Assembly (NCBI RefSeq): GCF_964355755.1
Contig: NC_092679.1
Location: forward strand, 23,746,432 to 23,810,431
Origin: Antedon mediterranea
Taxonomy: Eukaryota; Echinodermata; Crinoidea; Comatulida; Antedonidae
DNA: 64,000 nt
Direction of reading: 5' to 3'
Below are positions 1 through 57,090 of the stretch, piece after piece (the stretch's first letter is position 1; every line of letters starts with the position of its first letter). Made by a program: the position numbers and the translations under genes. The notes beneath the pieces were generated by a model, which did not search any database, was not told where the DNA came from, and was given only the letters and a program-made list of their open reading frames with translations.

Positions 1-925
1 TTCAAAAATATTCTGTAAAACTACGTCATAGTTGGGCAAATGTCTTATCTTGCTTAACAATCTACAATTAGGTTTATCCAATTCGACATTTTAATATAAT
101 GCCGCTTTTGAATAATTCTATATGCATAACTTGTATTTATACATTTTGTAAACTTGAACTCCAGCCTAGTGAAACACGCAAAAATGTATAATTATCTTTC
201 TAAGGGAGATAATGAGGTAGATATACTCTAATAGTATATTGTGTGTCGTGTATGTTTGAAGATGTAGGCATATAGTGTAGGACTTGTAACAACGAGGCAA
301 TGTAACTGTCAAAGAAGGATGAGTCTATTGGCGGTATCTACAAAAGAAGAAACAAGATGTTTGATACCCGCGATATCTAATCTTATTATGATCTCTCCTT
401 ATTATTTTGGACAAGACTAATTCCAGATTTAAGTAGTCGTCCTACCATTGTTTTAAATGATGTCTTCGTGTTTTGTTTGATCAACTGAAATAAGAATTCT
501 GTTCCGTCATAACCGTATGTGATGCATGAAGATAAATGTAATTTTTCGGTTGACTTATGGAATTATATATACGAATGGTTTGATCGAAATTGCTATTGAA
601 TAAATTGAAAGAACGCTCATCATTTTTACCACCTTAGTTACCACAAAGGACTGCCTGAATAATATCATAGGAAAATATATAATATCTCTATGGTAATATC
701 GATTTAAATATTAACAAAATATTGAACTAATTCTAGTAAGTAGTAGTAATCTAGTAAGTGAAATATTTTTAAATATTATAAAATCTTGGTTTGTTTATTT
801 ACCTATTGTTATTATTTTTTCGTCTTGTTATTGTTAAATATATAATGCAGGTTATTGTGTTCCAAATCATAAACAGACGGAGCATGCGCTCTCTCGAGGG
901 TTTGCTGAAAAAAAGGTCAAAGTTC
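1..925. repeat. Direct duplication, copy A (matches 13112-14253)
   Basis: This segment aligns in the same orientation with 13112-14253. Shared stretches include 'ctacgtcatag' against 'ttacgtcatag', 'ccgcttttgaataattcta', the stretch around 'gatgcatgaagataaatg', 'taccacaaaggactgcc' and 'acggagcatgcgctct'. Copy B lies upstream of the calpain start codon. Copy A therefore probably marks the upstream region of a second calpain-like gene left of the window (inference). The match is cut by the left window edge and fades near 925. No coding potential is seen. Confidence 0.85.
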
Positions 926-2313
926 AATTCAATTCAATTCAAGAAACATTTATTGACCAACAATATTATATCATAACAATGGTTGGCATATAATATATAT
1001 AGTCGAGAGACTACAAAAGACAAACATTTTTTAAATGAGAGTCACCTGAACAGCTAGAAAGCGGCAAAACGGCCAATATCACAAGGATTTGAAAGATGAA
1101 CATCTTTTTACACAATTCTGTATAAACGCTAAACTTTACCTCCGACAGTTCGTACTGTGTCTGGTTAACGTTAATATAGCATGTTTTGTTGGCTTTATAA
1201 CATACCTGATTGTATTCTTGCAGTGTGATTGGTCAATTACGCATCATGTGTTATTTAGCTTTTTGTAAGTATTTTGAGCATTTTGCCCGTCGACGTTTTT
1301 GACTCTGATCGAATTCGAACATCAACTTGTTGTGCACGCCGTCTATAACGGCTCAACTCAGCGTCCAAAGTTGAATGGCCTAGCTTCCCGAACTAGCATT
1401 CGTCAATGATTTACATTGAATATAGGCCTAAGTAGGTGTGTTATAAAATAAATAGTGCATTTTTTTATTTGGTCAACGGCGGATCTGGTCAATTTCGCCT
1501 AGATAAAATTTGAGTCGTCAGTTTTTCAACTCATGAATTATTTTCACCATCAAACTCATAAACAAGCTCTCCTATGATTGCCACATCTGCTTTATTCTGC
1601 TTTATCTGCATCACTTTTACAAAACATTCCCAATTATTGAGTTATAACTCAACGTGTTCAACCTTTTTTTTTGTACAAGAGTACTTTATGAATATGATTG
1701 AATGTCAGAATAACAATTATTTTCAAGACATCATCTGAGAAAGAAGTTATGCGATTGGAAAAACTTCATGCCGTAATGCTAAATGAATTGTCAAATTCAG
1801 CTTATCCTCAGAGACCTAGATCAATTTATGAACGCATTTTACTTACAGATATTTTTACCATTGCGTGAATTTTAGTTATTTAGATAAATCACATATAAAT
1901 GATATTTGTTTTATATTTCAAGCATTGTGATATAGAACTTAGAAAGTTGATGGATGTCATATACCTCTATGATAAAATTAATTGAAAAACCATCCTAAAT
2001 TAAATTGTCGCTTGTGATTGGTTAACTTGAGTCACGCAAAGCTTTTTTACCGATTTCCAATACAAAACTATTATACCATTGTTATTATTAGTGACGATTG
2101 ACGTGTCCTGAAGTGTACCAAGAAGGCAAAAAAAAAAAACAACAGGCATACCACTCCATTGCAAATGGTATGGCCAAGTGGTGATCTGACAGTGAGTTAT
2201 AAATTGTGTTACTTTAACGAGTTATTACATTAGACTATAAAGTTGTTGCTCTTAGTTAAGTCAATCCACACCCTGAATGCATAAAACAATAGAAATTAGA
2301 CAAGTTTTTGTTC
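926..2313. other. Intergenic, no gene seen
   Basis: AT-rich sequence between copy A of the duplication and a palindromic element. Only short scattered reading frames are present and none resembles a known protein. The stretch near 1330-1380 weakly resembles part of the ABCC10 intron near 19715-19765, so it may be an old dispersed repeat. Confidence 0.4.
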
Positions 2314-2507
2314 CATAGAATAATCATTTATGCTGTCTTTGATAAAAATGATTTTTTTTTTAATCCAATCCAATGACTTCATGATAAATAAAAACAATAA
2401 AATCGTTGTAGTCAAGATATTATTACTCTTACTAATCATGACGTCATTTGATTGGACGTGTGAAAATATCATTTTCATCAAAGACAACATAGATGCTTAT
2501 CCTATAG
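2314..2507. mobile_element. Palindromic MITE-like element of about 194 bp
   Basis: The left half (from 'ccatagaataatcattta') is an imperfect reverse complement of the right half (ending 'gatgcttatcctatag'). The arms share 'gtctttgat' and 'aatgat' motifs and are about 90 bp each. This explains why both strands carry similar short reading frames here. The structure fits a non-autonomous fold-back element. No transposase is present. Confidence 0.7.
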
Positions 2508-3163
2508 TTATAGGATGAAAATTTATAAAATTCTCATTTGTTTCAGGTATGAAAAATGCATATTTATCAATTTATCGTCGATCGTTGTCGTTCTAGTGTG
2601 TGAATGAGCATTAGGTCTACCCTTACCGGTTATTAAGTGTTTATTTGTAGACGTGCACTATACCGTATATCGATCAGATTAGTAGTGTTATAGTTTTAAT
2701 AGTAGTTGTTGTAATACTCGCTGCACTTGGTTACGCCAGTAGTTCAGTACATAAGATGTAGAATTAAAATAAAAACTATGCTATATTTATTTATATATTC
2801 TGGTGTCTTAAACTTGCTGTTACTTCTTTCCGAGATTAAAGCTTGGCACATATTTCGAGCAACTGAAAAAAAGAATAAACATTTTACTGTACTTCCAGAT
2901 CTTCCGAAAGCTACAAGTTAGTTTGATTCGACAAATATTCGAATAAGATTGTTTTCATTCATTTCATTAAATTTTGAATTTTTAATCGTTTGTATAGGCC
3001 ATACGAACTGTATTACTGTAAAATTTACGGTTATTAATTTGGAAAATGTAAGAAGTACATTAACAAAAAAAACTTTAAAATTTAACAGTTTTTTACAGGG
3101 TAAACCTACTGTACAGTTCATTTCAAGTTTTATATAATTAATTTAGATTGCAATGCATATACT

Positions 3164-3226
3164 TTAACACCAGTTATTGACTACCTTTGAAACGACTATC
3201 TATAAGAATACATGTGTATATTTATT
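3164..3226 (-). terminator. Possible calpain 3' end and poly(A) region
   Basis: On the minus strand an AATAAA hexamer lies at 3226-3221. A possible terminal coding exon (acceptor at about 3187, encoding VVNNWC then TAA at 3166-3164) lies just beyond it, and another candidate acceptor near 3282 gives Ala then stop. The exact 3' end cannot be fixed from sequence alone. Confidence 0.3.
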
Positions 3227-3373
3227 TCTAATATTTTATTAAAAGTGTACACGTTATTGCTTAAAAAAACCCCAAAACAACTATGCCTGTTTGAGAGCAA
3301 TGCGTAAAGTATTAGTTATTATAAAGAACTTTAGAACCATTATATTATTCATTATTAGTCTAATATTACTTAC

Positions 3374-6025
3374 GTCTTCAAGTGTAAATTCCAGAGATTT
3401 CTCATTTGTTCCACCGAGCTTTTCAAATTTTCCTGCATAGTAAAAAGATGGTAGAATTTTGATGGATGAATGAGGATGGATGGATGATGATGACGATGAG
3501 GAGGATGATGGATGGAATGATGATGAGGATGATGATGATAATTAATGGGTGATGGATGAATGATGATGGGTGGATGATTTATGGATGGTTAATGATGATG
3601 AAAGATGATGACGACGAAGAGGAAGATGATTAGAGAATTTGGTGCTTAGGATGATGAATGATGAGGATGATAGGTGACAATTGATGAGGATGATGGATCA
3701 GGATGATGGATGTTGGTGGACGATGATTGATGATGATGATGATGATGACGAGATATAATGTAGGCCACTGGCAGAGTTCGTGCTTGATGGCTATGGCTTA
3801 GAGTCGAACCCAGGTAAGCAAGATATCTGATTCACACGGGCACTCTGGATCTTACAGTGTTACAACGCTTTTACACGGAATGTAAACACATTTGTAAGAT
3901 GTGTATAAAATGTGAATTTGTGTAAAAAGAGTAAGAGTTTGAATAGGCTACTTACTGATAACGTAGCGAATCTTTGAAACCATTAGGAAAAATTCGTCGT
4001 ATGTAATCTTATTATCACTGCCAACGTACCGGCTCACTAGGTGCTGCAGTACAGCGTCACTGGTTTTAAGACCTGAAACAGAATCCGTTGAATAGTTTAA
4101 AAAATGGTTCTTCGTTTGCATTTAATAAACTGTAAATATTGCATAGTATTTAAATATATATGTACGTTCAAGACTGCCGCTTTTAAAAAAAGGCGTGTGT
4201 TCAAATAAATGTATATACAATTATTAGTCATGTCGTACGAAAGGCATATCAAAGTCTTAATGAATGGTTGTATCCAATTAGAGGTTGAGGACTCGGTGAT
4301 GAAGTGACGGGACGGGAGTTTAAAAAAACCCGCGCTCCTACCCACTGGTCACTACCGTAGATACCTGCTCGTGACAATGCATCTCGTAACTCGCTCACAT
4401 CAAGAGTTTTGCTTTCGTCCTTATCAGCTCGAAGAAACATCATCTGAAATCAGAAACAAAGTCTAAACATTTAGACGATGCGCTAGCCATAATCACGTAG
4501 GCCTAAGGTCTAAAGCGAAGCTAAGTTCGAATGGATGTATCCATTTAAACTTGCCAACTTTGTATTGGTAATGTTTTACAACAAAATGGAGTTGACTCAG
4601 TCAAATCCGTCTCATATGCCACTGAGTAATATTAAATGAATATGATTTTTTACTTGGCGAAATAAAATGTTGTCAATTATAGTAGGCATCTACTTGCTTT
4701 GTTTGCCTGTTTAGTTGTACGATATTGTTTAAGTTATTGTCCTGTATAATTGTTGACGTTAATAGATATCATACCTATCAGGAAAATTGATATATTGGTA
4801 AATTATTATATTGATATCTCCAGTTACCCGTATCTTAGCCGAAATATTTAATAGCCTGCCCTCTGTCGCTCTACATTTTGCCAAGTGTTGTATTTCGCTG
4901 TATCTATTATTATATTAATTATTGGTACTTACATCACAGTAAAATGACCATGCTCCAATAGCAATGCCTTCATTGACAGAAAGTTTCCGAGAATCGTCTT
5001 CCTATAGTTTTAAGCTTAAGGAATTTAGACAAAAAACTTGCACTTCTTTACCGTATACCATCAATAGATCTTATAGATGTAGGCCTAAGTCTCCATCCAT
5101 GTTCAGTTCAAGATAAAATAATTCATTATTGACATGACCAGAAACATACAGGAAGGGTAGCATACACTTTTTGGCGCTCTCAATGTTATTTATTTCTAGA
5201 GACAATATGTTAAATCGTGAAATATGTTAACCATTTTGATCAGAGCATGAATTTCTTTCCATTTGATGATGGTAGACGATGATGGTGCCCACATTGGTTA
5301 CAGGGAAGCCTGATCCGAATCATCCCAGTTTCCTATTTTACATTTCAAATATTTTTGCAAAACTTTGTTAACAAAAGGATACGTCAAACAGTGAGGCAAT
5401 AGCTGCCGACGTCTCATGTGATATGTCAGAAGGAATGATATCTATAAGAAATAATATTTTTTATTACATTACAATTTATTATTATTATCTAGACATAGAC
5501 AGATGATCATTAGAAACTGTCGAATATAATTATGCCAAATATGACTTCACTTTAAATGTTACATAATACATAATAAAGAATTTATTGTGGTGGCGTACTG
5601 AGACATATAACATACTTTCTTGTTTCCAACGTACAAAGAAGTTATCCAGTTCTGAGTTGTCCATCAACCCGTCCTGTAAGATGTAATTGGGTTTAACTGT
5701 TTACGGCTGGAATGCATTATACTGCATGAACACAGCATCTTCATACCATTTATCAAATTTGCTAACATTTACGTATCATTTTTTTATAATGTCTATCTTA
5801 CAACTTTATTAAATCATACTTGATTTGTGGAACCCTTTCTCTGCTTTCAAGATGTAATGCTTTGTAAATGTTTATATTTTATATAACAATAAATCAATTT
5901 AAAGCCAGAGTTAATGGATCTAAGGCAAATTAATATTCCTTATGCCACTACTGACTTACCTCTCCAGCATATTCTTCAAAGACTGATTGAATGATTTCAA
6001 CCATCATTGGGTCAAGCGTTTTATT
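3374..6025 (-). other. Penta-EF-hand domain exons of the calpain
   Basis: Seven exons encode a PEF domain. The exon 4443-4356 has a textbook EF-hand loop, [12 protein letters not shown], with ligands at positions 1, 3, 5, 7, 9 and 12, followed by [12 protein letters not shown] (family L-x-x-AL-x-x-AG). Later exons give a degenerate loop [11 protein letters not shown] and the C-terminal helix KIRYVIRKFEKLGG. Ca2+ binding is therefore probably retained although proteolysis is lost. Confidence 0.88.
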
Positions 6026-9000
6026 CTAAAATAAAGTAAAACATTGTATATATTATAATTACGATCTAGTATAGCAACAATGCTGCTGCTGTGATTGGTG
6101 GGTTGCTCTTCTTGTGTTTTATTTTTGTTTCTGTTTATTTGTCTGAATACAGGGTTCTCTGGGAGAACAGTCTTTAACTAAAGAGGTCCCCAGTAAAAAT
6201 AAGAAATACATAAAAGAAAAATAAAGACAGATAATCAGGGATGTTACTGTTTTGAATAGTATTATGACCAATGCATTTGGCCGTTTTGTAAACCTGACCT
6301 GTATTCTTCAATTGTATATAGGCAATAGGCAAATACCGTAATTTGTATAATAGATTATAGACACATGATATTGTTTTTACTCTGATCTTTAGTGAATTAA
6401 AAAATAATAAATGTAACGAACATGATTGTGATACGGTATCACGAAACTTTCCTAATGCTCAGTCTACACTATCAAACTAGTTTGACAACAAAGTGTGATG
6501 TGACCAAATATGGTAGTGATATGACATTTTTACATCCGGTGCACTTCACATTTGTTTTTGCCACATAAAGTTTGATAGTGCAGAAAAAGATTGACACAAA
6601 AGACACAAATACTTTTTTTAGAATACACCTACCTCTGATAACGTTGAAGTGTAAAACGATGTGCTGTTTGCCGATCTAAAATTATATTAATACTCAAAGG
6701 TATAAATGCTCAAATCAAGCTAGATTTTTTCGAGGTTTCCGTTATAAATGCATTTACGGATATAGAAACTACCAAAAACTGTACATAATTGTGAAATATT
6801 TCTAGTAGATATGCAAAAAAATAAAAATCTGCGAAAGATAATGCATTTAATCTGCAGACCATTTGTAGAGTATTACAAATTACATTGATGTTTTAGTTAA
6901 CAATGAGTACAATACCGTATACTTACTTGGTCTTTGAAAAAGCTCTGCAAAAGAAACGCAAAAGGAACGGAAATGCTTTGTCTTTTTCAAACGTTGAAGG
7001 AATGATGACGTAATTACCCGGACCAAGATCCATGAACAGAGCAGCTTCTCGTATTCCTAGTTTGTGTTCAAATGAATGTAGTGGTTTGCTTGTTTGAATG
7101 AACTCCATATCCACTGGACATCCATCTTCTGTCTGTGAGTTAAAAACTATTATTGTAACTAAGAGGGTACAACAACAGAATATTTCGAAGGAAAGATATT
7201 ACAAGAGGTATAAAAAATTGAATTGAAAGAATGAATAAAGGTGTTAACCACGAAAGATTAAAAAAAAATGTAATTGTAAATATTTGTATTTTTGGCTGGG
7301 CTAGCCATAAATGCTTCTCATTTACAATTTCACTGCGCATTTCTGTAGCGCTTTGACCACATTTGGTGGAAAAGTGACCACAAGTATTTAATGTTCATCT
7401 GAAATATGCTCCAGCTGAAACAGTACAATTCCGGCGCTAGTAAAGGCAAACCAATTCCATTGATCTACTGAGTTTCTCAAATTTTCGATTTCCAATAACT
7501 AAACCTAAAGGTATTTATGTACGTAGTTAAAGGATCTCAATGGAAATAAGATAATACGCTTTTTGGGATATCCTGGAAATGTATGATGATGATTTCCTAA
7601 TAAATACAAATCAAATCATGTCGGTAATATCAAAACAATGAATGAATCTTAATCAAAATAGTGTGTCATGGTCAAATTAATTCGGGAATCATTAAAACTA
7701 AATTTTAGAAAAAATTACTTTATACACATCAAACCCGAGATTAGAGTCTTCCCACCAGGATTCTTCTCTGTCTTTGCCAACTGCCATCAGAGAGACAACC
7801 ACCAAATCACCATTATTGTCAACTTTTATGTTGTACTGGGGGTTCTTGTGGAAATCTAAGGAAAGAGAGTGCAGTGGTATCATTTAACGGTTGCTTGTTA
7901 CACACTTGGTGTACACGAAACACATGCAGGGCACTTCAGTGGCAGTTTGAAGAACTCGCCTGTTTCTAGAAGATAAGGAAAGAGAGTGCAGTGGTATCAT
8001 TTAACGGTTGCTTGTTACACACTTGGTGCACACAAAACACATGCAGGGCACTTCAGTGGCAGTTTGAAGAACTCGCCTGTTTCTAGAATAACAATCGTAG
8101 AATTTTTTTTTAGTTTCTATTTTTAATGGTTTATTTAGATTGTAAATTGAGACGAATTTGAGATGTGATTTCCGGCTAGAGAGTGAGTCACTGCTAATTG
8201 TAGGCCTAGTGATTTCAGAGAGGTGAATCCCTGGGTAGTTTTAGTCTACTGCTGGAGGAAGATGTGATTGCAAAGAGGTGAATCCATGGGTAATTTTAGT
8301 CTACTGCTGGAGGAAGATGTGATTGCAAAAAGGTGAATCCATGGGTAATTTTAGTCTACTGCTGGAGGGAGATGTGATTGCAAAAAGATGAATCCATGGG
8401 TAATTTTAGTCTACTGCTGGAGGAAGATGTCATTGCAGAAAGGTGAATCCATGGGTAATTTTAGTCTACTGCTGGAGGGAGATGTCATTGCAGAAAGGTG
8501 AATCCATGGGTAATTTTAGTCTACTGCTGGAGGAAGATGTCATTGCAGAAAGGTGAATCCATGGGTAATTTTAATCTACTGCTGGAGGGAGATGTCATTG
8601 CAGAGAGGTGAGTCTCTCCAATTTTTTGATATTGTATCTCTTTATTTGTTGCATACTTTCTTTATTATTTTCATAACGTCCCATAGCAGTTGAACCTTTT
8701 TGCCATTTATTCAAATGTTCAGTCACGTGCCATTTCACATCTCTGTCAGACAGCTCTGGCGGGATGTGAAGAATTCTCAGCTCGTTGAATCTGTGCATGA
8801 TGTCTTTGAGATCCATCCTTAAATGAATGAAGCAAATGAATTTTGTTAATGCGCTGTTAAAATATTGGGGATGAGGTCAACGGCGTGCAAGTTCAATAGA
8901 CATGGCCGCATGCGTCTAAATAATTCTCAATTGGCATGGTTGGCTGTGCCATACCCATAGATAATAATTGAATTCAATGCTATTGCGTGTGCTTGGTTCG

Positions 9001-12000
9001 TGCGACAAATTTACTATCTTGTTTTCTAGTCGTTTTTCAATACAAAGCATTGCATAGACGCACGGTCAACCGTGCCGATGGATAATGATATAGCACGGCC
9101 GATAGTCTATTCCTAGTTTAGCTTCGGTTGAGTACAGTGGCTCACTTACCAGAAATCACCATCAACCTCACTTTTTATACCAAACTTTTTCTTGGTATCT
9201 TCATCCAAAGATTTCATTTCTTCTGACCTAAGATGTTAATGTAAATTGTTACGTTGTAATATGATTTTTTTCGTTCTTAAACAAAAAAAAATAATAAAAT
9301 TAATTGTACCTGACGTAACTGTATGACGATAACTCGTAACGAAAACTAGTTTTCAAATATGCAGTATATATCTTAGCGGAACAAGGTACAGTACGGTACA
9401 GTAGTAGGCCTAACACTATTCCAAAAGGAACTAAAAAAGAGATTTTCAAATTATGCAAACATTCAGAGGTTAGTATAAGTAGGCCTCTCTTGTGAGCAAT
9501 ATATTTCTTACTTGTCACCCCATGGTCCAGTCCATTCAGAGCGTTCTGTGCTTAGAATTCTGATGATACTTGCAGAGTTCATTTTACCATTGTTGTCATA
9601 CGTTACCTAAAGGTTCACAATAAGATAAGAAATGAAAGGATTTTTGGCTTATCAGTGTTGTAATATATTAATAACTAACTAACTAACTAATAAATACATT
9701 GTGACTACAAAAAACAATTTCATGAGGTGAAAGATGAAAGCATATATTTTCAGAAGGCGAATGAAATTATTTTGATACATTGAACGAACATTATTTGTTT
9801 ATAACAGACCATTCAAAATAAGACAACGTTCACATTTTTAACATTGAAATAGAACAATTAGGCGGCGCACACAGCCATATAATAATAATTGATCGAACGT
9901 GATCAGTCAACAACAGCCTGTGGGTGCACTGTGGAACAAAAATGAACGCGCAAAACGAAATGCAGTATCCGCATAATAATATAACGAAATGACGAAATTA
10001 GGAGTTAAACAGAATATTATTATTTATCTTTCAATCAAATGAAAATGTTCTATACGTTCTTATTGCATCATTATGATATTTATTGCTGCGTTGTATGATT
10101 GAAAACACACAACAGGGACACATCAAACAAACATCTAGGTAGGTTTAAATAAAACGTTATTTGAAATCATTAAGTTACCAATCTGGTAATAGAAAGTTGA
10201 GTTAAATGAAGAATTAGGATATATCGTATTAAAACGATGTCTACTGGTTAATAAAAAGTTAATCTTATGTAGATTATAAACCCACGTGTTTTACACTTCC
10301 AGATAGAATGTACAGGCTCTGTAGTTGAAGACCACACAAATCAAGATTTTCATAATTTAAAAAGCCGGTCACAAGTGATCCAGTTTTTCTCCACATCATC
10401 AACTTGGAACGAAGTATAGCCTCTGTGAAGTCAGAAATATCTACTCTCTCAACAGTACCACCAGATAGATCAATCAATGCTTCAGGGATTTCAAATGTAC
10501 AATCCATCGCTTCGTAACGTAATAAAAGCCTTCATTATACAAAAAAAAAAATATTTTTTTAATAGGATGGATAGTCAGAGAGTGTTTTCACTCGAGCTAC
10601 TGTTTCAGTTTCAGATTTTTCTTTCACACATAAATATAATACAATACACACATTTTTCTTTTTTTAGATATAAATGATAAAAAATGTGTGTGGAGATTGC
10701 ATTAAGCCAATTTGGCTTTAGGTCTGAACCTCCTGATGGTGACTTGCAGTAAAAGTGTAAAAGAACACTTACTTTGCCAATGCCTTTTCCATGAGAGGAG
10801 CCCAGAATTCATCTTTTGATTGGCAGCGACTGAACATCAATTTACCGTTCAGTGTTGGCAGTCGATCGTCAATGACAACTTCATACCACTTTCCAAATCT
10901 CCAGAATCTGAATCTAAAGATGCCTTTGTAGTTGTGTTTGAACGACTGTTCTGGACAGACGTAGTTGAGTACGGACGGAATAAGCGTCATCCCTGCCAAT
11001 GCGTTCATAAATGCTGAATTTACTGTAGGAAACAATTTAACAGAGAATGGTTTAAATGATGGAAGATGATACAGTACTTAAAGATGTCTTTATGATAACC
11101 GAGTGTTCTTGACAGACAAAGTTTAGTATGAACAAAATATGCGTCAACCATGCTAAATGCGTTCATAAATGACGCGTTTACTGTAGGAAATAATTTAACA
11201 TAATGACATAATTACATTACATTAGACATTTAATAATGGCGCTCTTAGAATGAACCAGGGCATAATGACAGCGATTTTTGTGGGAAAGAAGATAGCAGAA
11301 GAAGATGCGAATAATGTTTGGTAAATATATTTTCTTTAACTTTGAATAATCTTTTTTATAAACTCACCAAGACTTCCAACTTCTTTTACAATGACTTCAT
11401 TAAACGATGCCCCATCTTTGAAAAAGAAAGGTTGCTTGCCTCTTAAGATTTCCTATTAAACAATAATTTATCAATGTGTATTTGGTTCTAAATGTATGCC
11501 CCATCTCAGAAGAGAGACTTTATCTACAAAATCAAATAAAAGGAATGGAAATGTTTTTGTCAAAATACGAACGGATTATTCAAAGTAACTTTTTGTGCTA
11601 CAAGAAGTTACTTTGAATAATCCGTTAGTATTATGACGTGCTTTTATTTCTTGTGCTTCAAGAAGTTACTTTGAATAATCCGTTCGTATTTTGACGTGCT
11701 TTTATTTTTTGTGCTACAAGAAGTTACTTTGAATAATCCGTTCGTATTTTGACGTGCTTTTATTTTTTGTGCTACAAAAAGTTACTTTGAATAATCCGTT
11801 CGTATTTTGACGTGCTTTTATTTTTTGTGCTACAAGAAGTTACTTTGAATAATCCGTTCGTATTTTGACGTGCTTTTATTTTTTGTGCTACAAGAAGTTA
11901 CTTTGAATAATCCGTTCGTATTTTGACGTGCTTTTATTTTTTGTGCTGCAAGAAGTTACCTTATGTACGAATTTATTATACCGATATTTAAATTAGATAA

Positions 12001-12561
12001 TTCAGTTGACTTTACTTACTTGGAAGTGGAGCGAATAATTGCTGTAACAAGAAGATGAGCCCCTTTTTGTATTTATATATAAATTGTATATAATTAGTTA
12101 GGTTATTTTCATACATTTATTTATGGTAACCATACAAATATTTTGCCGATTATTTTTTAATTTGAAGGTCTCGAGAGAAATTGTCAAAATAGTAACAGTA
12201 AGGCCCTGTCTACACTATCAAACTCTATGTGACAAAAACATATATGGACATGATGATGTCATATCACTACCATATTTAAGCATATTACTACCATAATTGG
12301 GCACATCACACTTTTATTGTTAAAGTTTGATAGTGTAGACAGAGCTTTAAACAATTAACTTACATGTGGGCGTAACCACCTGATGTCATTTCGCCTCTCG
12401 TAGAATTTCAACAAAGTTGAATCTTCTTTAATGAATATAGACTCGTTACATGCCTTAAAACATGGATCTTTGAATAGGTTGTCCCTATTGTACTGACTAT
12501 CTTCTATCAGATCGGCGTAGTTTTGGCCACAAATTGTGTTTAATTTGATGGACTTAGCCAT
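3374..12561 (-). CDS. Calpain-family protein, predicted catalytically inactive
   Basis: Seventeen minus-strand coding exons were traced: 12561-12364, 11452-11368, 11022-10773, 10529-10295, 9606-9512, 9227-9150, 8817-8657, 7855-7719, 7132-6927, 6675-6633, 6025-5960, 5673-5616, 5441-5383, 5001-4933, 4443-4356, 4072-3956 and 3432-3374. All junctions are GT-AG and keep one frame over 2004 bp (668 codons). Domain order is that of a classical calpain: protease core, calpain-type beta-sandwich, then penta-EF-hand. The core matches the family over [27 protein letters not shown] and [12 protein letters not shown]. However, the catalytic Cys motif reads VNSAFM where GDCWFL is expected, the His motif reads LQSLYILSG for KGHAYSVTG, and Asn is replaced in [12 protein letters not shown]. 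Calpains normally cleave proteins in a Ca2+-dependent way; this one should not. Inactive calpains such as CAPN6 have structural or regulatory roles. The last few codons are unresolved: candidate terminal exons begin near 3186 or 3281. Confidence 0.93.
3455..3755. repeat. GAT/GGAT-rich microsatellite
   Basis: An impure low-complexity run of GATGAT, GGATGGAT and GACGAT units. It lies in the intron between the last two traced calpain exons. Confidence 0.9.
6457..6583. mobile_element. MITE, CTCTGTCTACACTATCAAAC family, copy 1
   Basis: The left end reads 'gctcagtctacactatcaaa' and the right end is its degenerate reverse complement 'tttgatagtgcag'. The interior shares 'ccaaatatggtagtgatatg' with other copies in this window. 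It lies in a calpain intron. Confidence 0.8.
7858..8089. repeat. Direct duplication of about 117 bp
   Basis: Two near-identical copies, 7858-7974 and 7975-8089, starting 'aaggaaagagagtgcagtgg'. The copy next to exon 7855-7719 supplies its 3' splice site and pyrimidine tract on the minus strand. The outer copy is an intronic duplicate. Confidence 0.9.
8216..8610. repeat. 55-bp tandem repeat, about 7 copies
   Basis: The unit contains 'gaatccatgggtaatttta' and 'ctgctggaggaagatgt', and recurs at 55-bp spacing (8281, 8336, 8391, 8446, 8501, 8556). Small substitutions alternate between 'gtgattgcaaa' and 'gtcattgcaga'. It lies in the intron just 3' of calpain exon 8817-8657. Confidence 0.93.
11553..11960. 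repeat. Hairpin followed by 58-bp tandem repeat
   Basis: A left arm at about 11560-11594 is the reverse complement of the first unit at about 11599-11637, giving a stem of more than 30 bp. About six more 58-bp units containing 'aagaagttactttgaataat' follow. It lies in the calpain intron between 12363 and 11453. Confidence 0.9.
12199..12349. mobile_element. MITE, CTCTGTCTACACTATCAAAC family, copy 2
   Basis: A complete copy with inverted ends ('cctgtctacactatcaaact' and 'gtttgatagtgtagacagag'), bounded by TA. It sits 14 bp inside the intron from the 5' splice site of the first calpain coding exon, which ends at 12364. Confidence 0.88.
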
Positions 12562-14253: not shown

Positions 14254-15457
14254 AGTTCTCTTTGAGCACTCCTCTGCAATTGACTTTTACAACAAAACTA
14301 CGTACCGTCATCATTTCTTTTATTTGACTACGGAGACAGCAGGATGTATCCGAGAATTAAAAATTATATTAATCTATAGAATATTAATATCTATTTGGTA
14401 TGCCTACCATTTTGAACAATTAACTCTCTATTTTAAAACAGGAAGCCTAATGCGATTATTTCATAAATTCTTTTTTTTTTATGTTTTTCTTTAAATGTGT
14501 ATATACACTGTATTATTTGTATATATTATATATTGCATTACCTTACCTATCACGAACTTGTGGAAGAACATCTTTATTTTATGGTGAACGAGCTTTATAT
14601 TTTGTACTATTGTATTTATATTTTCGTGAATAAATAAAAATTTTGATTGATATGGACAAAATTATAAAACATTACACTTTATTTGTAACAGAAACAGAGT
14701 ATTATTATAATATTGCATATTTCAGGTGGGCATTATAAGCTTCCGTAAACGTAACTCGGCTTATTTACACCGTGACGTACACAACAACAACTGCGCATGT
14801 AAGTTTCGAGAGGGATATGTTTTGAAAGCATTGTTAATTGTTGTTGTTTGATTATTAGGGAAAGAGGAAGTAGAAAAATGCCTTAAGTAGCTAGGTACTT
14901 AAGGTAAATCTTTATTACTTTGTCATTTTTCCGTACTTGCATACTTTAAAATTAAGAACCAAAACCAGGCCTAGGTTTAGGCATTTAGGTAGGCCTAGGC
15001 ACCCGTTACGTAACACTGTTTAGCCGGCCAAGCAGCACCGAACTGAACAAGAGTGGTCTGGTGGGGGTTTTCCCCATTTCATGATTTACAGCTAGGCCCT
15101 AGTAGGCCTAGTTAGAATGGCTACTAGCTTAGCTAGGCATACAGTACAGTAGGTCCAGTTGAGTCACTTTACGTACACCGTACGGCTAGAGGCCTAGCCC
15201 TACTAGGACTAGGTGGTCTATGGTCTATACTATGAATGTATTAAATTGTCTCAGGGCATGCCTATGATGTACATATGTTAACTGCAAGTAGAAAGAAGTT
15301 TCAACAAAGGCTAAGCATATTTAAATTTGTAAAGAATATTAATTGTCCTACAGTAGGCCTATTATTTATATACAGACATGCCAGTCTAAACATTTTTTTA
15401 GTCAATATCAATCATTTTTAACAACACATATAAATTGCCAGTTTTGTTTCATTTCAG
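14254..15457. promoter_or_regulatory. ABCC10: Calpain-ABCC10 divergent intergenic region
   Basis: This must hold the ABCC10 promoter and 5' UTR. The 3' splice site 'gtttcatttcag' at 15446-15457 implies an upstream non-coding exon. A candidate donor 'gcatgtaagttt' lies at 14795-14806, downstream of a CRE-like TGACGT at about 14773. The exon pairing is inference only. Confidence 0.35.
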
Positions 15458-15483
15458 TTGCTAAATTTGATGCATTTGTTGCT

Positions 15484-25856
<10,373 letters not shown>

Positions 25857-32185: not shown

Positions 32186-35100
32186 CTCTTCTTTGATGTT
32201 GCTAGGGTCTATAAAGTCAGGGTTGTTCTTATGGTCCATTACTATAGGTTTATCACCTGGTTTATGCTAGAATACAAAATAAAAAACAAATAAACAATAT
32301 TTATATTTTATTTAAAAATTTAAATAGTGACTGTTTATTTAAATATTCACATTCAATATTCAAATTCACTAAGAAATTTTAATTCCGAAAACTAGAACTT
32401 TATGGAAACTGACATTTAGGGCTTGGTAAAAGAAGAGCTGACTGTAGAAGGATACAGTAGTTCAAACTCTGTATTCACACACACCAGGGTGTCAACACCA
32501 TCATTTTGTGTAGTGTGTGCCTCGGTGTCTGTAAACTTCAAAGTCTTGCTAGGCAATGTGAAGGGGTATTAAATTGGTGTTGTAGTATTATACAGTAGAA
32601 CCTTCATTTGAACACCCCTATTGACACTTTCCTGTGAAACCAACAAGGAGAAGTATATGTTTTATACTGCATCCACCCGTATTTAGGGGACACTTTGTTG
32701 GGTGCATCCACCCGTATTTAGGGGACACTTTGTTGGGTGCATCCACCCGTATTTAGGGGACACTTTGTTGGGTGCATCTAGCCGTATTTAGGGCACACTT
32801 TGTTGGGTGCATCCACCCGTATTTAGGGCACACTTTGTTGGGTGCATCCACCCGTATTTAGGGCACACTTTATTGGGTGCATCCAGCCCGTATTTAGGGG
32901 ACACTTTGTTGGGTGCATCTAGCCCGTATTTAGGGGACACTTTGTTGGGTGCATCCAGCCCGTATTTAGGGGACACTTTGTTGGGTGCATCCGGCCCGTA
33001 TTTAGGGACACTTTGTTGGGTGCATCCACCCGTATTTAGGGCACACTTTGTTGGGTGCATCCAGCCCGTATTTAGGGCACACTTTGTTGGGTGCATCCAC
33101 CTGTATTTAGGGACACTTTGTTGGGTGCATCCACCCGTATTTAGGGACACTTTGTTGGGTGCATCCAGCCCGTATTTAGGGGACACTTTGTTGGGTGCAT
33201 CCAGCCCGTATTTAGGGGACACTTTGTTGGGTGCATCCGGCCCGTATTTAGGGCCACTTTGTTGGGTGCATCCAGCCCGTATTTAGGGGACACTTTGTTG
33301 GGTGCATCCAGCCCGTATTTAGGGGACACTTTGTTGGGTGCATCCAGCCTATATTTAGGGACACTTTGTTGGGTGCATCCAGCCCGTATTTAGGGACACT
33401 TTGTTGGGTGCATCCAGCCCGTATTTAGGGGACACTTTGTTGGGTGCATCCAGCCCGTATTTAGGGGACACTTTGTTGGGTGCATCCAGCCCGTATTTAG
33501 GGACACTTTGTTGGGTGCATCCAGCCCGTATTTAGGGACACTTTGTTGGGTGCATCCAGCCTGTATTTAGGGACACTTTGTTGGGTGCATCCAGCCCGTA
33601 TTTAGGGACACTTTGTTGGGTGCATCCAGCCCGTATTTAGGGGACACTTTGTTGGGTGCATCCAGCCCGTATTTAGGGCCACTTTGTTGGGTGCATCCAG
33701 CCCGTATTTAGGGGACACTTTGTTGGGTGCATCCAGCCCGTATTTAGGGCCACTTTGTTGGATGCATCCAGCCCGTATTTAGGGCCACTTTGTTGGGTGC
33801 ATCCAGCCCGTATTTAGGGACACTTTGTTGGGTGCATCCAGCCCGTATTTAGGGACACTTTGTTGGGTGCATCCAGCCCGTATTTAGGGACACTTTGTTG
33901 GGTGCATCCAGCCCGTATTTAGGGGACACTTTGTTGGGTGCATCCAGCCCGTATTTAGGGGCACTTTGTTGGGTGCATCCAGCCCGTATTTAGGGACACT
34001 TTGTTGGGTGCATCCAGCCCGTATTTAGGGACACTTTGTTGGGTGCATCCAGCCCGTATTTAGGGACACTTTGTTGGGTGCATCCAGCCCGTATTTAGGG
34101 ACACTTTGTTGGGTGCATCCAGCCCGTATTTAGGGGACACTTTGTTGGGTCCTGAAGGGGTTCAACTGTAATGGTAGTAAATTGGACAAACCTGTACAAC
34201 TTTAGGTGGGAATTTGTCAGCTAGCTTGCTTAGTAACACATCTACTTTCTGACGTTGAAACAACGATGCTGGCTCTTCTTTCTTTGGTTTCTTTTTATCT
34301 AAAACAAATAATTAAATATTATGTAACTGTGTCAGTCAATTTAATTCACAGTGGTGTATACTGCTTTGTTTAGTATCTTATCAGCAAAGTTCTGTGATAT
34401 AGGTAAGTAATTAAAAAATGTAATTTCTGTGTCAGCACCGACTAGCGATTTGACCTCTGATTTGACCTCTGCTTCAGTAGCATTTAATTTTTATTTTTTT
34501 ATTATTCCTTCAATGTCAGAATCACAGGATAAAATTGAAAAAAACATTTTCATTCTGTATCTTGTTTGCTAAATGACAGAGTGGCGTTGACTCAAAACAC
34601 AAGAGGTCGCTTCTGATTCAACAAAATAAGTTAAAATGATATATATATATAGGTATTGTTTATAGTATGTGTATTACAGTCAGATACAGTACTCTATGTA
34701 TCTACTTACTGTATGTGTGAACTCAACCTTATTACAGTCAGATACAGTACTCTATGTATATACTTACTGTATGTGTGAACTCAACCTTATTACAGTCTGA
34801 TACAGTACTCTATGTATATACTTACTGTATGTGTGAACTCAACCTTATTACAGTCTGATACAGTACTCTATGTATATACTTACTGTATGTGTGAACTCAA
34901 CCTTATTACAGTCAGATACAGTACTCTATGTATATACTTACTGTATGTGTGAACTCAACCTTATTACAGTCTGATACAGTACTCTATGTATATACTTACT
35001 GTATGTGTGAACTCAACCTTATTACAGTCAGATACAGTACTCTATGTATCTACTTACTGTATGTGTGAACTCAACCTTATTACAGTCAGATACAGTACTC

Positions 35101-38100
35101 TATGTATATACTTACTGTATGTGTGAACTCAACCTTATTACAGTCTGATACAGTACTCTATGTATATACTTACTGTATGTGTGAACTCAACCTTATTACA
35201 GTCAGATACAGTACTCTATGTATATACTTACTGTATGTGTGAACTCAACCTTATTACAGTCTGATACAGTACTCTATGTATATACTTACTGTATGTGTGA
35301 ACTCAACCTTATTACAGTCTGATACAGTACTCTATGTATATACTTACTGTATGTGTGAACTCAACCTTATTACAGTCAGATACAGTACTCTATGTATATA
35401 CTTACTGTATGTGTGAACTCAACCTTATTACAGTCTGATACAGTACTCTATGTATATACTTACTGTATGTGTGAACTCAACCTTAAATTTATATTTGTAT
35501 AAATAATAATATGCAAAAGTCAATATAACATCTATCCCTATCCCAATACAGTAGATTTTGTTTCTATGAGATTGTTACCTTTTTCTTTTTTCTCTTTATC
35601 TTTAAATTCCCACCAGTATCCACAGGATGATTGGTACCTAGAGTATGACAATGTCTCCTCAAAAGCTGACTGGATGTTGTAAGTTGCTGTCAACTAGAAA
35701 CAAACAAAAAGTTACATACATTTGAGTTTAATATTTCCACTAAAGCTCTGTTTTAATACCCCTTTCACATTTACTTTCAATACAGACACCGGGACACACA
35801 CTATACAAAATGATGGTGTTGCTCTGTCTACACTATCAAACTAGTTTGACGACAAAAAAAAGTGATATGCCCAAATATGGTAGTAATATGATGCGATTGT
35901 GTCCATATATGGGCACATCACATTGTTTTTATCACATGATAATTGATAGTGTAGACAGAAATTAAAGTAAATCAAATTGGGATTAGGTGTGAAAAATTCA
36001 TTTTATTGACATGACATTAAAACTAAAGGTAAAGGACCAGATCAAAATTATTCTACTGCAGTTAGTGCAGTAAATATATATTTTTACTGCAGTTACTGCA
36101 GTAAATATATATATTTACTGCAATAGCATATAACATCATTTTATTTTGTTTCAATATAGAAGTTTGAGACATATCACTGCAATAAACAATGTGTATGTGT
36201 ATTATTCACCCCATCCACTCCCCCTCCAAAAAAAAATATAAAAAAACATAAGCAAAAACAGGTTGAACAAAAACTCTACAGTAGAATCATTTTTACATGG
36301 CCCCTAAATAAAATGGGGTTTTGTTTTTTTGATACACTACATCATGATGAACATACATAAAGTGCACAAGATAGAACATGGCGTGAACTTTAGCACTTCA
36401 TAGCCAGTGCACAAGATAGAACATGGCGTGAACTTTAGCACTTCATAGCCAGTGCACAAGATAGAACATGGCGTGAACTTTAGCACTTCATAGCCAGTGC
36501 ACAAGATAGAACATGGCGTGAACTTTAGCACTTCATAGCCAGTGCACAAGATAGAACATGGCGTGAACTTTAGCACTTCATAGCCAGTGCACAAGATAGA
36601 ACATGGCGTGAACTTTAGCACTTCATAGCCAGTGCACAAGATAGAACATGGCGTGAACTTTAGCACTTCATAGCCAGTGCACAAGATAGAACATGGGGTG
36701 AACTTTAGCACTTCATAGCCAGTGCACAAGATAGAACATGGCGTGAACTTTAGCACTTCATAGCCAGTGCACAAGATAGAACATGGGGTGAACTTTAGCA
36801 CTTCATAGCCAGTGCACAAGATAGAACATGGGGTGAACTTTAGCACTTCATAGCCAGTGCACAAGATAGAACATGGCGTGAACTTTAGCACTTCATAGCC
36901 AGTGCACAAGATAGAACATGGCGTGAACTTTAGCACTTCATAGCCAGTGCACAAGATAGAACATGGCGTGAACTTTAGCACTTCATAGCCAGTGCACAAG
37001 ATAGAACATGGCGTGAACTTTAGCACTTCATAGCCAGTGCACAAGATAGAACATGGCGTGAACTTTAGCACTTCATAGCCAGTGCACAAGATAGAACATG
37101 GGGTGAACTTTAGCACTTCATAGCCAGTGCACAAGATAGAACATGGCGTGAACTTTAGCACTTCATAGCCAGTGCACAAGATAGAACATGGCGTGAACTT
37201 TAGCACTTCATAGCCATTTGGAAAAGAAAAACAATAGAAAAAAGAACGAAAAAAGTTTGGAATTGATTGTATTGGGATTTTGGAATTCAACGTAAGTGTT
37301 GCGATTGGCGTTGCCTAATAAATATAAACTTTCTTCTTCCAAGAATGAAGAAGAGCAAAACAATAGTTGTAAAGATTAGATAAAGATTGGGAATTCCATG
37401 TTTAAAGGGGGGTTCCGGGTTTAAAATGAATAGTAAAAAATGTAAAATATATTTGTTTGTCTCTTGAACGGTAAAAGTTTCAATTTATATAAGCGCCCAG
37501 TGAAGCAGAACGAAGGCTGTGAAATGACGCCAGATTACAAGTGCAGCTACGGCAAAATCACACTGTGGTTACAGAATACGAAATTCGTGAAATGGTCAAT
37601 CTTCCGACGACTCGTTATCATTAACCATATCAATTACTTTTGTAAAATTATACTTATCTGATGTAATTTTAGTCGGTCTTCCCATTTATAAAATCAATTT
37701 TCTATGAAAATCCATCAAAACAGTGAAAAATTAGATAAGTTTGCACTTTACGTTTGCCGATTTTCGCACTGACTTAGGGAAAGCCTTCAAAATCAATGAA
37801 GCGTAACGTATACATTCCTGCTGAGCGAGGAGAGCGAGACGACGATACACGTGCTCTCTCTGCCCATGCCTGGCATCGTCACGTGATAAGCAGATACAGT
37901 ATACAATACCAAACTGGTCGGGTCGAGTATACCCCGTCTATATCACAACATGAACGATGTACAGTATTTGATTGAAGGTCGACTCAACCTACCGGAATGG
38001 TATAGATAATATAGCTCGAATGAGAGAGTTGGAATATTTGTAAACATAAGTACAGTATTGCTAATTTTAACAAGTGTAGCCTATAGTAAAAGGCCTGGTA

Positions 38101-50082: not shown

Positions 50083-50426
50083 CTGCTGTATTCACAAATA
50101 GCAATATACACCTTTTAAAATACTTTGACATTTCACTTGACCTGAATTTAGGTAGGATTTTTTTATTTATTTTTTTTTTACATTTTGTCTTTTTTAGGAT
50201 TACTAGGGCACGGGATTGTTGCGATGCATGACATTTCTGATAATTATAATGATGATGATGTTGTTGATGATTATATGACTATAATATTGATGTTGATTTT
50301 GTTGTGTTTCCATTCATTATTTTGCTCAATTGTTATAATAATTGTTTTATTTTGGTTGCACCACTAACGACAGTGTGTGTGCCACTGATAAAAAAAATGA
50401 TGACCAATAAATAATAAATAAAACAA

Positions 50427-50792
50427 TAGTGGTCCGATAAAGGATTGATAACAATAGTGGTCCGATAAAGGATTGATAACAATGTGGTCCGATAAAGGAT
50501 TGATAACAATAGTGGTCCGATTAAGGATTGATAACAATGTGGTCCGATAAAGGATTGATAACAATAGTGGTCCGATAAAGGATTGATAACAATAGTGGTC
50601 CGATTAAGGATTGATGACAATAGTGGTCCGATACAGGATTGATAACAATAGTGGTCCGATAAAGGATTGATAACAATGTGGTCCGATAAAGGATTTATAA
50701 CAATAGTGGTCCGATAAAGGATTTATAACAATAGTGGTCCGATAAAGGATTTATAACAATAGTGGTCCGATAAAGGATTGGTGACCAAAGCT
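50427..50792. repeat. 26/28-bp tandem repeat, about 13 copies
   Basis: The unit 'acaatagtggtccgataaag' plus 'gattgata'. Some units lack two bases ('acaatgtgg'), and some have 'gattaagg' or 'tttataac'. Reading frames over it are artefacts. Confidence 0.95.
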
Positions 50793-55231: not shown

Positions 55232-57090
55232 TCATAGGATAGGATAATTGTGTTGTGGGGTGGTAATGGACAGATAATGTCATACAGGATAGGATAATTG
55301 TGTTGTGGGGTGGTAATGGACAGATAATGTCATACAGGATAGGATAATTGTGTTGTGGGGTGGTAATGGACAGATAATGTCATACAGGATAGGATAATTG
55401 TGTTGTGGGGTGGTAATGGACAGATAATGGCATACAGGATAGGATAATTGTGTTGTGGGGTGGTAATGGACAGATAATGTCATACAGGATAGGATAATTG
55501 TGTTGTGGGGTGGTAATGGACAGATAATGTCATACAGGATAGGATAATTGTGTTGTGGGGTGGTAATGGACAGATAATGTCATACAGGATAGGATAATTG
55601 TGTTGTGGGGTGGTAATGGACAGATAATGTCATACAGGATAGGATAATTGTGTTGTGGGGTGGCAATGGACAGATAATGTCATACAGGATAGGATAATTG
55701 TGTTGTGGGGTGGCAATGGACAGATAATGTCATACAGGATAGGATAATTGTGTTGTGGGGTGGTAATGGACAGATAATGTCATACAGGATAGGATAATTG
55801 TGTTGTGGGGTGGTAATGGACAGATAATGTCATACAGGATAGGATAATTGTGTTGTGGGGTGGTAATGGACAGATAATGTCCTACACAGGATAGGATAAT
55901 TGTGTTGTGGGGTGGTAATGGACAGATAATGTCATACACAGGATAGGATAATTGTGTTGTGGGGTGGTAATGGACAGATAATGTCATACAGGATAGGATA
56001 ATTGTGTTGTAGGGTGGTAATGGACAGATAATGTCATACAGGATAGGATAATTGTGTTGTGGGGTGGTAATGGACAGATAATGTCATACAGGATAGGATA
56101 ATTGTGTTGTGGGGTGGTAATGGACAGATAATGTCATACAGGATAGGATAATTGTGTTGTGGGGTGGTAATGGACAGATAATGTCATACAGGATAGGATA
56201 ATTGTGTTGTGGGGTGGTAATGGACAGATAATGTCATACAGGATAGGATAATTGTGTTGTGGGGTGGTAATGGACAGATAATGGCATACAGGATAGGATC
56301 ATTGTGTTGTGGGGTGGTAATGGACAGATAATGTCATACAGGATAGGATAATTGTGTTGTGGGGTGGTAATGGACAGATAATGTCCTACACAGGATAGGA
56401 TAATTGTGTTGTGGGGTGGTAATGGACAGATAATGTCATACAGGATAGGATAATTGTGTTGTGGGGTGGTAATGGACAGATAATGGCATACAGGATAGGA
56501 TCATTGTGTTGTGGGGTGGTAATGGACAGATAATGTCATACAGGATAGGATAATTGTGTTGTGGGGTGGTAATGGACAGATAATGTCCTACACAGGATAG
56601 GATAATTGTGTTGTGGGGTGGTAATGAACAGATAATGTCATACAGGATAGGATAATTGTGTTGTGGGGTGGTAATGGACAGATAATGGCATACAGGATAG
56701 GATCATTGTGTTGTGGGGTGGTAATGGACAGATAATGTCATACAGGATAGGATAATTGTGTTGTAGGGTGGTAATGGACAGATAATGTCCTACACAGGAT
56801 AGGATAATTGTGTTGTGGGGTGGTAATGGACAGATAATGTCATACAGGATAGGATAATTGTGTTGTGGGGTGGTAATGGACAGATAATGTCATACAGGAT
56901 AGGATAATTGTGTTGTGGGGTGGTAATGGACAGATAATGTCATACAGGATAGGATAATTGTGTTGTGGGGTGGTAATGGACAGATAATGTCATACAGGAT
57001 AGGATAATTGTGTTGTGGGGTGGTAATGGACAGATAATGTCATACAGGATAGGATAATTGTGTTGTGGGGTGGTAATGGACAGATAATGT
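55232..57090. repeat. 50-bp tandem repeat, about 37 copies
   Basis: The unit contains 'aggataggataattgtgttg' and 'tggggtggtaatggacagat'. Variants carry 'cctacac' or 'catacac' insertions, 'ggcatac', or 'gatcattg'. The combination 'ggcatac' then 'gatcattg' recurs at 56284, 56484 and 56685, so multi-unit blocks were copied. Because the unit is 50 bp, the frames rotate and the short frames here are artefacts. Confidence 0.97.

Follow-up and report, generated by a model that had tools for sequence, protein, structure and literature searches.

A candidate family of non-proteolytic classical calpains in the crinoid Antedon mediterranea

What keeps a calpain gene intact when every catalytic residue of its product has been replaced? 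The question is raised by a gene in a stretch of 64,000 nucleotides from Antedon mediterranea (the window, C10:23746432-23810431, C10 being contig NC_092679.1), which was compared with the genome it comes from, searched over 354 Mb in 18 contigs. The window gene has paralogues at T1-T3, L005 and L006, whereas two further loci of the same genome, L007 and L008, bear the catalytic triad of calpains. As judged from sequence, the window gene very probably belongs to an old branch of classical, penta-EF-hand (PEF) calpains that is non-proteolytic, has been retained by selection and has been amplified. Its product is possibly Ca2+-responsive, and is probably a Ca2+-sensing binding protein rather than an enzyme.

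The gene and its replaced catalytic site

The window gene comprises 18 coding exons on the minus strand, running from an ATG at window position 12561 down to 2836. The spliced model of 2031 nt encodes 676 residues and contains a single, terminal stop, and all of its introns have GT-AG borders and consistent phases. An earlier note on this DNA had recognised an open calpain frame with correct phases, which holds for the spliced minus-strand model, but had assigned 17 exons to 9150-12561, an interval that contains only coding exons 1-6.

The protein is a homologue of the calpain (C2) peptidases, with a Pfam Peptidase_C2 match of 207.8 bits over residues 30-332 (cut-off 23.8), followed by a Calpain_III match above its cut-off at residues 353-477 (76.2 bits, E=3.7e-21). 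Among solved structures, taken as chains of the Protein Data Bank (PDB), it matches full-length mu- and m-calpains best, down to E 4.3e-79, and its tail aligns to the PEF domains of sorcin, grancalcin and calpains or calpain small subunits. It is because of this alignment to calpain, sorcin and grancalcin chains, and not of Pfam scores, that the tail is read as a penta-EF-hand domain. The C-terminal C2 domain by which CAPN6/Tra calpains are defined, according to PMC5650170, has no counterpart among the five Pfam hits of the protein (E up to 0.001). The protease core (PC1 and PC2), the C2-like (C2L) domain and the PEF-like domain follow one another in the same order as in triad-bearing classical calpains, and by its predicted architecture the product is a classical calpain.

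The catalytic positions were compared in a MAFFT alignment of the dead copies with CAPN2 and with the two triad-keeping loci, L007 and L008, in which residues are numbered as in CAPN2, the triad positions are set from CAPN2 Cys105 and the Ca2+-site numbering follows that given in PMC4631099. In the window copy Cys105, His262 and Asn286 are all replaced by Ser, the oxyanion Gln99 by Val and Trp288 by Glu. The replacements of Cys by Ser (VNSAFM for GDCWFL) and of His by Ser (QSLYILSG for GHAYSVTG) had been noticed before and are borne out by the alignment, whereas the supposed change of Asn to Leu was off by one position, as Asn aligns to Ser and it is the preceding Arg that is replaced by Leu. 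Across the six copies, in the order window gene, T1, T2, T3, L005 and L006, the Cys position is occupied by S, A, A, A, A and G and the His position by S, S, S, S, T and G, while the Asn position is S throughout. Not one of the 18 triad cells is kept and the oxyanion Gln is replaced in all six copies, which places the family outside the active peptidases.

The reading would fail, according to the earlier note, if other exons supplied motifs of the GDCW or GHAY type. A six-frame scan of C10:23698500-23761431, which covers the window gene and T1-T3, found none of the patterns [GSA][DN]CW, GH[ASG][YF] and [RK]NP[WYF]G, although a motif split by an intron would escape it, and the same scan found all three at the control loci L007 and L008. 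Therefore no unsplit alternative exon in this interval provides the catalytic motifs, and an alternative-exon supply is disfavoured at the window gene and T1-T3. At the more distant paralogues, L006 contains one SDCW string in its last-exon region, in a frame other than that of the gene, and plus-strand GHAF strings occur once in L005 and twice in L006.

Six copies and their selective constraint

When used as genome queries, exons 1, 4 and 16 each gave at least six matches, all on C10, and exon 3 gave at least those six and a further four that lie in other calpains; all such match counts are lower bounds. T1-T3 lie just below the window, with L005 186 kb and L006 19.7 Mb away. Full-length 18-exon models were obtained for the window gene, T2, T3 and L005, and the T1 and L006 proteins were completed too. 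All six copies have intact frames of 676-680 residues with one terminal stop each. Identity to the window protein falls from 92.5-93.3% for T1-T3 through 73.6% for L005 and 60.0% for L006 to 32-33% for L007 and L008 and 29.2% for CAPN2.

An unrooted tree built from 225 columns of 12 core sequences splits the six dead copies from the rest with an ultrafast bootstrap (UFBoot) of 100, on a branch of 1.09 substitutions per site, and L006 is the outermost of the six with a support of 77. In these comparisons the L007 and L008 proteins were joined by hand from homologous exon stretches, with their PEF parts left out and exons 1-2 of L007 not located; L009 and L010 were included over parts of the core, L011 and L012 entered an all-against-all comparison outside the alignments, and calpains from outside the genome were represented by PDB chains. 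At the donor junctions compared, the phases of the dead genes are 0,1,2,0,2,2,1,0,2, later junctions lying outside the comparison, and they are matched at corresponding places by nine junctions in L008 and seven in L007. The dead branch therefore comes from duplication of an intron-bearing calpain gene rather than from retrocopying.

Between the window gene and L005, the nonsynonymous divergence (dN) is 0.161 and the synonymous divergence (dS) 0.794, which gives a dN/dS of 0.20 (95% bootstrap 0.16-0.25) with the NG86 method and 0.28 with YN00. By domain the NG86 and YN00 values are, respectively, 0.22 and 0.41 for PC1, 0.25 and 0.29 for PC2, 0.20 and 0.21 for C2L, and 0.14 and 0.20 for PEF. 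The window gene and T2 give 0.37 (bootstrap 0.24-0.58, NG86). No dN/dS is given for L006, as dS to this copy is saturated in most comparisons. With L005 as outgroup, and 10 changes left unresolved, the branch to the window gene carries 30 nonsynonymous and 23 synonymous changes against approximately 1612:416 sites, about four standard errors off the neutral share of around 79% nonsynonymous.

Calcium sites, possible roles and competing explanations

At the two core Ca2+ sites, six acidic ligand columns hold Asp or Glu in every one of the 36 cells, two of them by way of Asp/Glu exchange; the dead copies also retain Gly91, whilst position 319 is variable. Where the three triad-bearing sequences agree, the residue is kept by all six dead copies in 32/57 columns of PC1, 18/54 of PC2 and 19/63 of C2L. 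In the tail of the window protein, oxygen ligands stand at what we take to be the usual positions of the EF2 and EF3 loops.

A number of observations weigh against a selected, Ca2+-responsive family. Every dead copy has Lys in place of Ile89 of Ca2+ site I, and acidity is likewise preserved throughout in 11 of the 18 further conserved acidic columns, so that ligand retention is only modestly above background; because of this control, the retention of the Ca2+ sites is suggestive and not strong. Three EF-hand Pfam families score below their cut-offs in the window protein (28.9 against 30, 21.7 against 25 and 19.4 against 25.4 bits), and the acidic C2L loop of triad-bearing classical calpains is missing. 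With YN00, the comparison of the window gene with T2 indicates weaker constraint, at 0.58 overall, 0.71 in PC1 and 0.90 in PC2, on few differences. The T branch, with 19 nonsynonymous and 8 synonymous changes, is about one standard error from neutral and shows no clear departure from it. Moreover, exchange between copies can blur the selection figures.

The proposals of the earlier note on function fare accordingly. That catalysis was lost whilst architecture was kept under selection is supported by six intact paralogues and by dN/dS values of about 0.2-0.3 against L005; the value near 1 that would have signalled a pseudogene is not seen overall between these paralogues, and is approached only by the YN00 figure for PC2 against T2. 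Of the beta-sandwich and the “ideal EF-hand loop” that it described, the C2L domain and an EF-hand region are indeed kept, and the description as ideal is a fair one for two loops, with Pfam scores short of the thresholds. The Ca2+-responsive role fits the acidic ligands of the core sites and the two EF loops, and the control just described leaves it as no more than suggested. Between the scaffold and the inhibitor that the note proposed, the sequences favour neither.

The history that would best account for these data is that a branch of PEF calpains lost its whole catalytic apparatus, in the simplest reading once and ahead of the duplications that gave the six surviving copies, and that purifying selection then retained the non-proteolytic protein. 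A rise in Ca2+ may still alter the shape or the partners of such a protein, and its calpain surfaces, namely the core, the C2L domain and the EF5 dimer face, may serve for non-cleaving contacts with calpain substrates, membranes or other calpain subunits. The partners would be either the triad-bearing calpains (L007, L008) or other proteins. As far as the sequences allow a ranking, a scaffold in its own right and a partner of triad-bearing calpains come out nearly equal.

It is possible that the protein is an independent scaffold, which would bind calpain substrates or the cytoskeleton, as reported for CAPN6. The latter, also called calpamodulin, is an earlier example of a calpain that functions without proteolysis (PMC3731218, PMC3563603), and it resembles the window protein in having lost more than one triad residue. 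However, its C-terminus is described as a tandem C2L/C2 arrangement (PMC3563603), where the window protein has a PEF-like tail.

A regulatory partnership is a tentative alternative, in which the protein would form EF5-mediated heterodimers with triad-bearing classical calpains and restrain or position them, as a dominant-negative or a pseudo-small-subunit. In line with this, the PEF-like domain is kept, EF5 included, and in the comparison with L005 has a lower dN/dS than any of the other three domains, though the YN00 value for C2L is close to it, and the genome has at least one triad-bearing PEF calpain locus, since L007 has clear PEF pieces (E 8e-10) and L008 a single weak one (E 0.017). Against it, PEF domains can homodimerise as well. 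If the family did regulate active calpains, it would constitute a natural protein inhibitor system unlike calpastatin. A broader and rather improbable extension is that the classical calpain system of this animal is mostly non-enzymatic, with six dead copies found against one clear and one probable triad-bearing PEF calpain; the dead proteins would then be Ca2+-responsive and act as dedicated Ca2+-gated subunits or decoys of the latter, with their dose tuned by ongoing tandem amplification and exchange.

The extent of the amplification has itself to be weighed. T1-T3 form three tandem units at C10:23706500-23746431, and both of their spacings are exactly 14,581 bp. Identity is 99.96% between T2 and T3 (over 14,491 bp) and 99.72% between T1 and T2 (over 5,713 bp), with the 3' part of T1 more diverged. 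Over 5.9 kb, the 3' half of the window gene region (window 1-5900) shares 98.6% identity with T3, whereas the aligned 5' pieces reach approximately 88-95%, a contrast that indicates recent exchange or conversion. Between T2 and L005, dS (NG86) is 0.36 in PC1 as opposed to 0.79-0.94 in the other domains, which fits a further conversion tract. The 14,581-bp units, together with the 98.6% tract into the 3' half of the window gene, represent recent unequal exchange or an assembly effect. That T1-T3 are in part an artefact of assembly, so that amplification falls short of six copies, is suggested by the exact spacing and the near-identity of T2 and T3, and is nonetheless doubtful, as a few differences between the units do exist, the 3' half of T1 is clearly diverged, and the window gene, L005 and L006 are distinct genes. 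Fewer real tandem copies would leave the account of a retained, non-proteolytic branch unchanged.

Decay of a formerly active calpain gene into a pseudogene is a very improbable account of the window gene. The loss of every catalytic residue and the weaker core constraint in the youngest comparison (PC2 against T2) would agree with decay, but none of the six copies has a broken frame over its 676-680 codons and every domain appears constrained against L005 (0.14-0.25 with NG86 and 0.20-0.41 with YN00); a pseudogene is therefore unlikely on the dN/dS of the window gene with L005. Moreover, in a neutral simulation with substitutions only and no indels, frames taken to 0.35 substitutions per site acquired 19.3 stops on average, and 0 of 500 stayed intact, so frames do not survive at the divergence of L005; at 0.05 substitutions per site the mean was 4.0 stops and 1% were intact. 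Finally, that the Ser of the window copy is a new nucleophile and the protein still an enzyme is scarcely credible, because the Cys position is Ser in this copy only, with Ala in four paralogues and Gly in one, so that no serine nucleophile is conserved, and because none of the six copies retains the His, the Asn or the oxyanion Gln.

Known relatives and other features of the window

Calpains without a complete active site are not new, and the statement in the earlier note that human CAPN6 and some invertebrate calpains have lost catalysis agrees with what PMC5650170 and PMC4631099 report. Members of the classical family C from Drosophila, Daphnia and Branchiostoma (BRACCAL2) are described as having lost critical catalytic residues, in a family with a bootstrap of 36, and a recent family C expansion is reported with Aplysia members that keep the triad (PMC5650170). 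In calpain C the His is lost and Asn is changed to Asp, both Cys and His are replaced in calpamodulin (CAPN6), androglobin and C. elegans clp-3, and 337 of 3795 calpain homologues are listed as non-peptidases, besides 637 fragments (PMC4631099). Family C thus resembles the window family, by description, in consisting of PEF calpains with lost catalytic residues; the window family differs from calpain C in having other residues at all three triad positions. CAPN1, CAPN2, L007 and L008, whose activity is assumed, have the same PC1-PC2-C2L-PEF order, and L007 and L008 share intron phases with the window gene, which lacks the triad, the oxyanion Gln and the acidic C2L loop of CAPN2 (29% identity) and L007/L008 (32-33%).

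No report of a six-copy dead classical calpain family was found in the open PMC literature, screened mostly by listings. Dead calpains, even with complete loss of the site, are already known, and what this genome adds is a classical branch of six copies that is under constraint and still amplifying. Such a branch is a natural experiment in which calpain architecture, and apparently the Ca2+-ligand positions, have been kept without the chemistry, in six copies of graded age, and it allows one to ask which calpain functions never needed proteolysis.

The coding exons are collected in Table 1.

Table 1. Coding exons of the calpain-like window gene (positions in the window; residues numbered as in CAPN2)
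Feature	Position	Strand	Basis
Exon 1, N-terminal part of protease core	12364..12561	-	Spliced model, ATG 12561, GT donor, phase 0
Exon 2, Ca2+ site I: Gly91 kept, Asp96->Glu, Ile89->Lys; oxyanion Gln99->Val	11368..11452	-	Spliced model, alignment
Exon 3 (PC1): catalytic Cys->Ser (VNSAFM); Ca2+ ligand Glu175 kept	10773..11022	-	Spliced model, alignment
Exon 4 (PC2): catalytic His->Ser (QSLYILSG)	10286..10529	-	Spliced model, alignment
Exon 5 (PC2): catalytic Asn->Ser, Trp288->Glu (ILSTERSEW); Ca2+ site II Glu292, Asp299 kept	9512..9606	-	Spliced model, alignment
Exon 6 (PC2): Ca2+ site II Asp321 kept, Glu323->Asp	9150..9227	-	Spliced model, alignment
Exon 7 (PC2 end / C2L start)	8657..8817	-	Spliced model
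Exon 8 (C2L beta-sandwich; acidic loop of triad-bearing classical calpains missing)	7719..7855	-	Spliced model, alignment
Exon 9 (C2L)	6927..7132	-	Spliced model; Calpain_III
Exon 10 (linker)	6633..6675	-	Spliced model
Exon 11 (PEF-like domain start)	5960..6025	-	Spliced model
Exon 12 (EF1 region)	5616..5673	-	Spliced model
Exon 13 (PEF-like domain)	5383..5441	-	Spliced model
Exon 14 (EF2 loop [12 protein letters not shown], first residue from exon 13)	4933..5001	-	Spliced model; aligned to calpain chains
Exon 15 (EF3 loop [12 protein letters not shown])	4365..4443	-	Spliced model; structure-chain alignment; Pfam
Exon 16 (EF4 region)	3956..4072	-	Spliced model; genome search with exon
Exon 17 (EF5 region)	3374..3432	-	Spliced model
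Exon 18 with stop codon (LLEICAKL*)	2836..2862	-	Spliced model

Two introns of the window gene contain tandem repeats, with units of about 58 bases in intron 1 (window 11580-11960) and about 55 bases in intron 7 (8230-8610). In T3, a reverse-transcriptase-like frame lies in the long intron before exon 12 (C10:23738719-23739267, cluster position 32220-32768); by exon spacing this long intron is also present in T2, and not in the window gene or T1. Elsewhere in the window, a multi-exon gene on the plus strand (15343-25856) looks, by its motifs, like an ABC transporter of the ABCC/MRP type, with two putative ATP-binding cassettes in successive exons. Long open frames at window 36337-37314, 32788-33286, 50333-50722 and 55280-56083 resemble tandem minisatellites rather than genes (e.g. 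repeated [15 protein letters not shown]).

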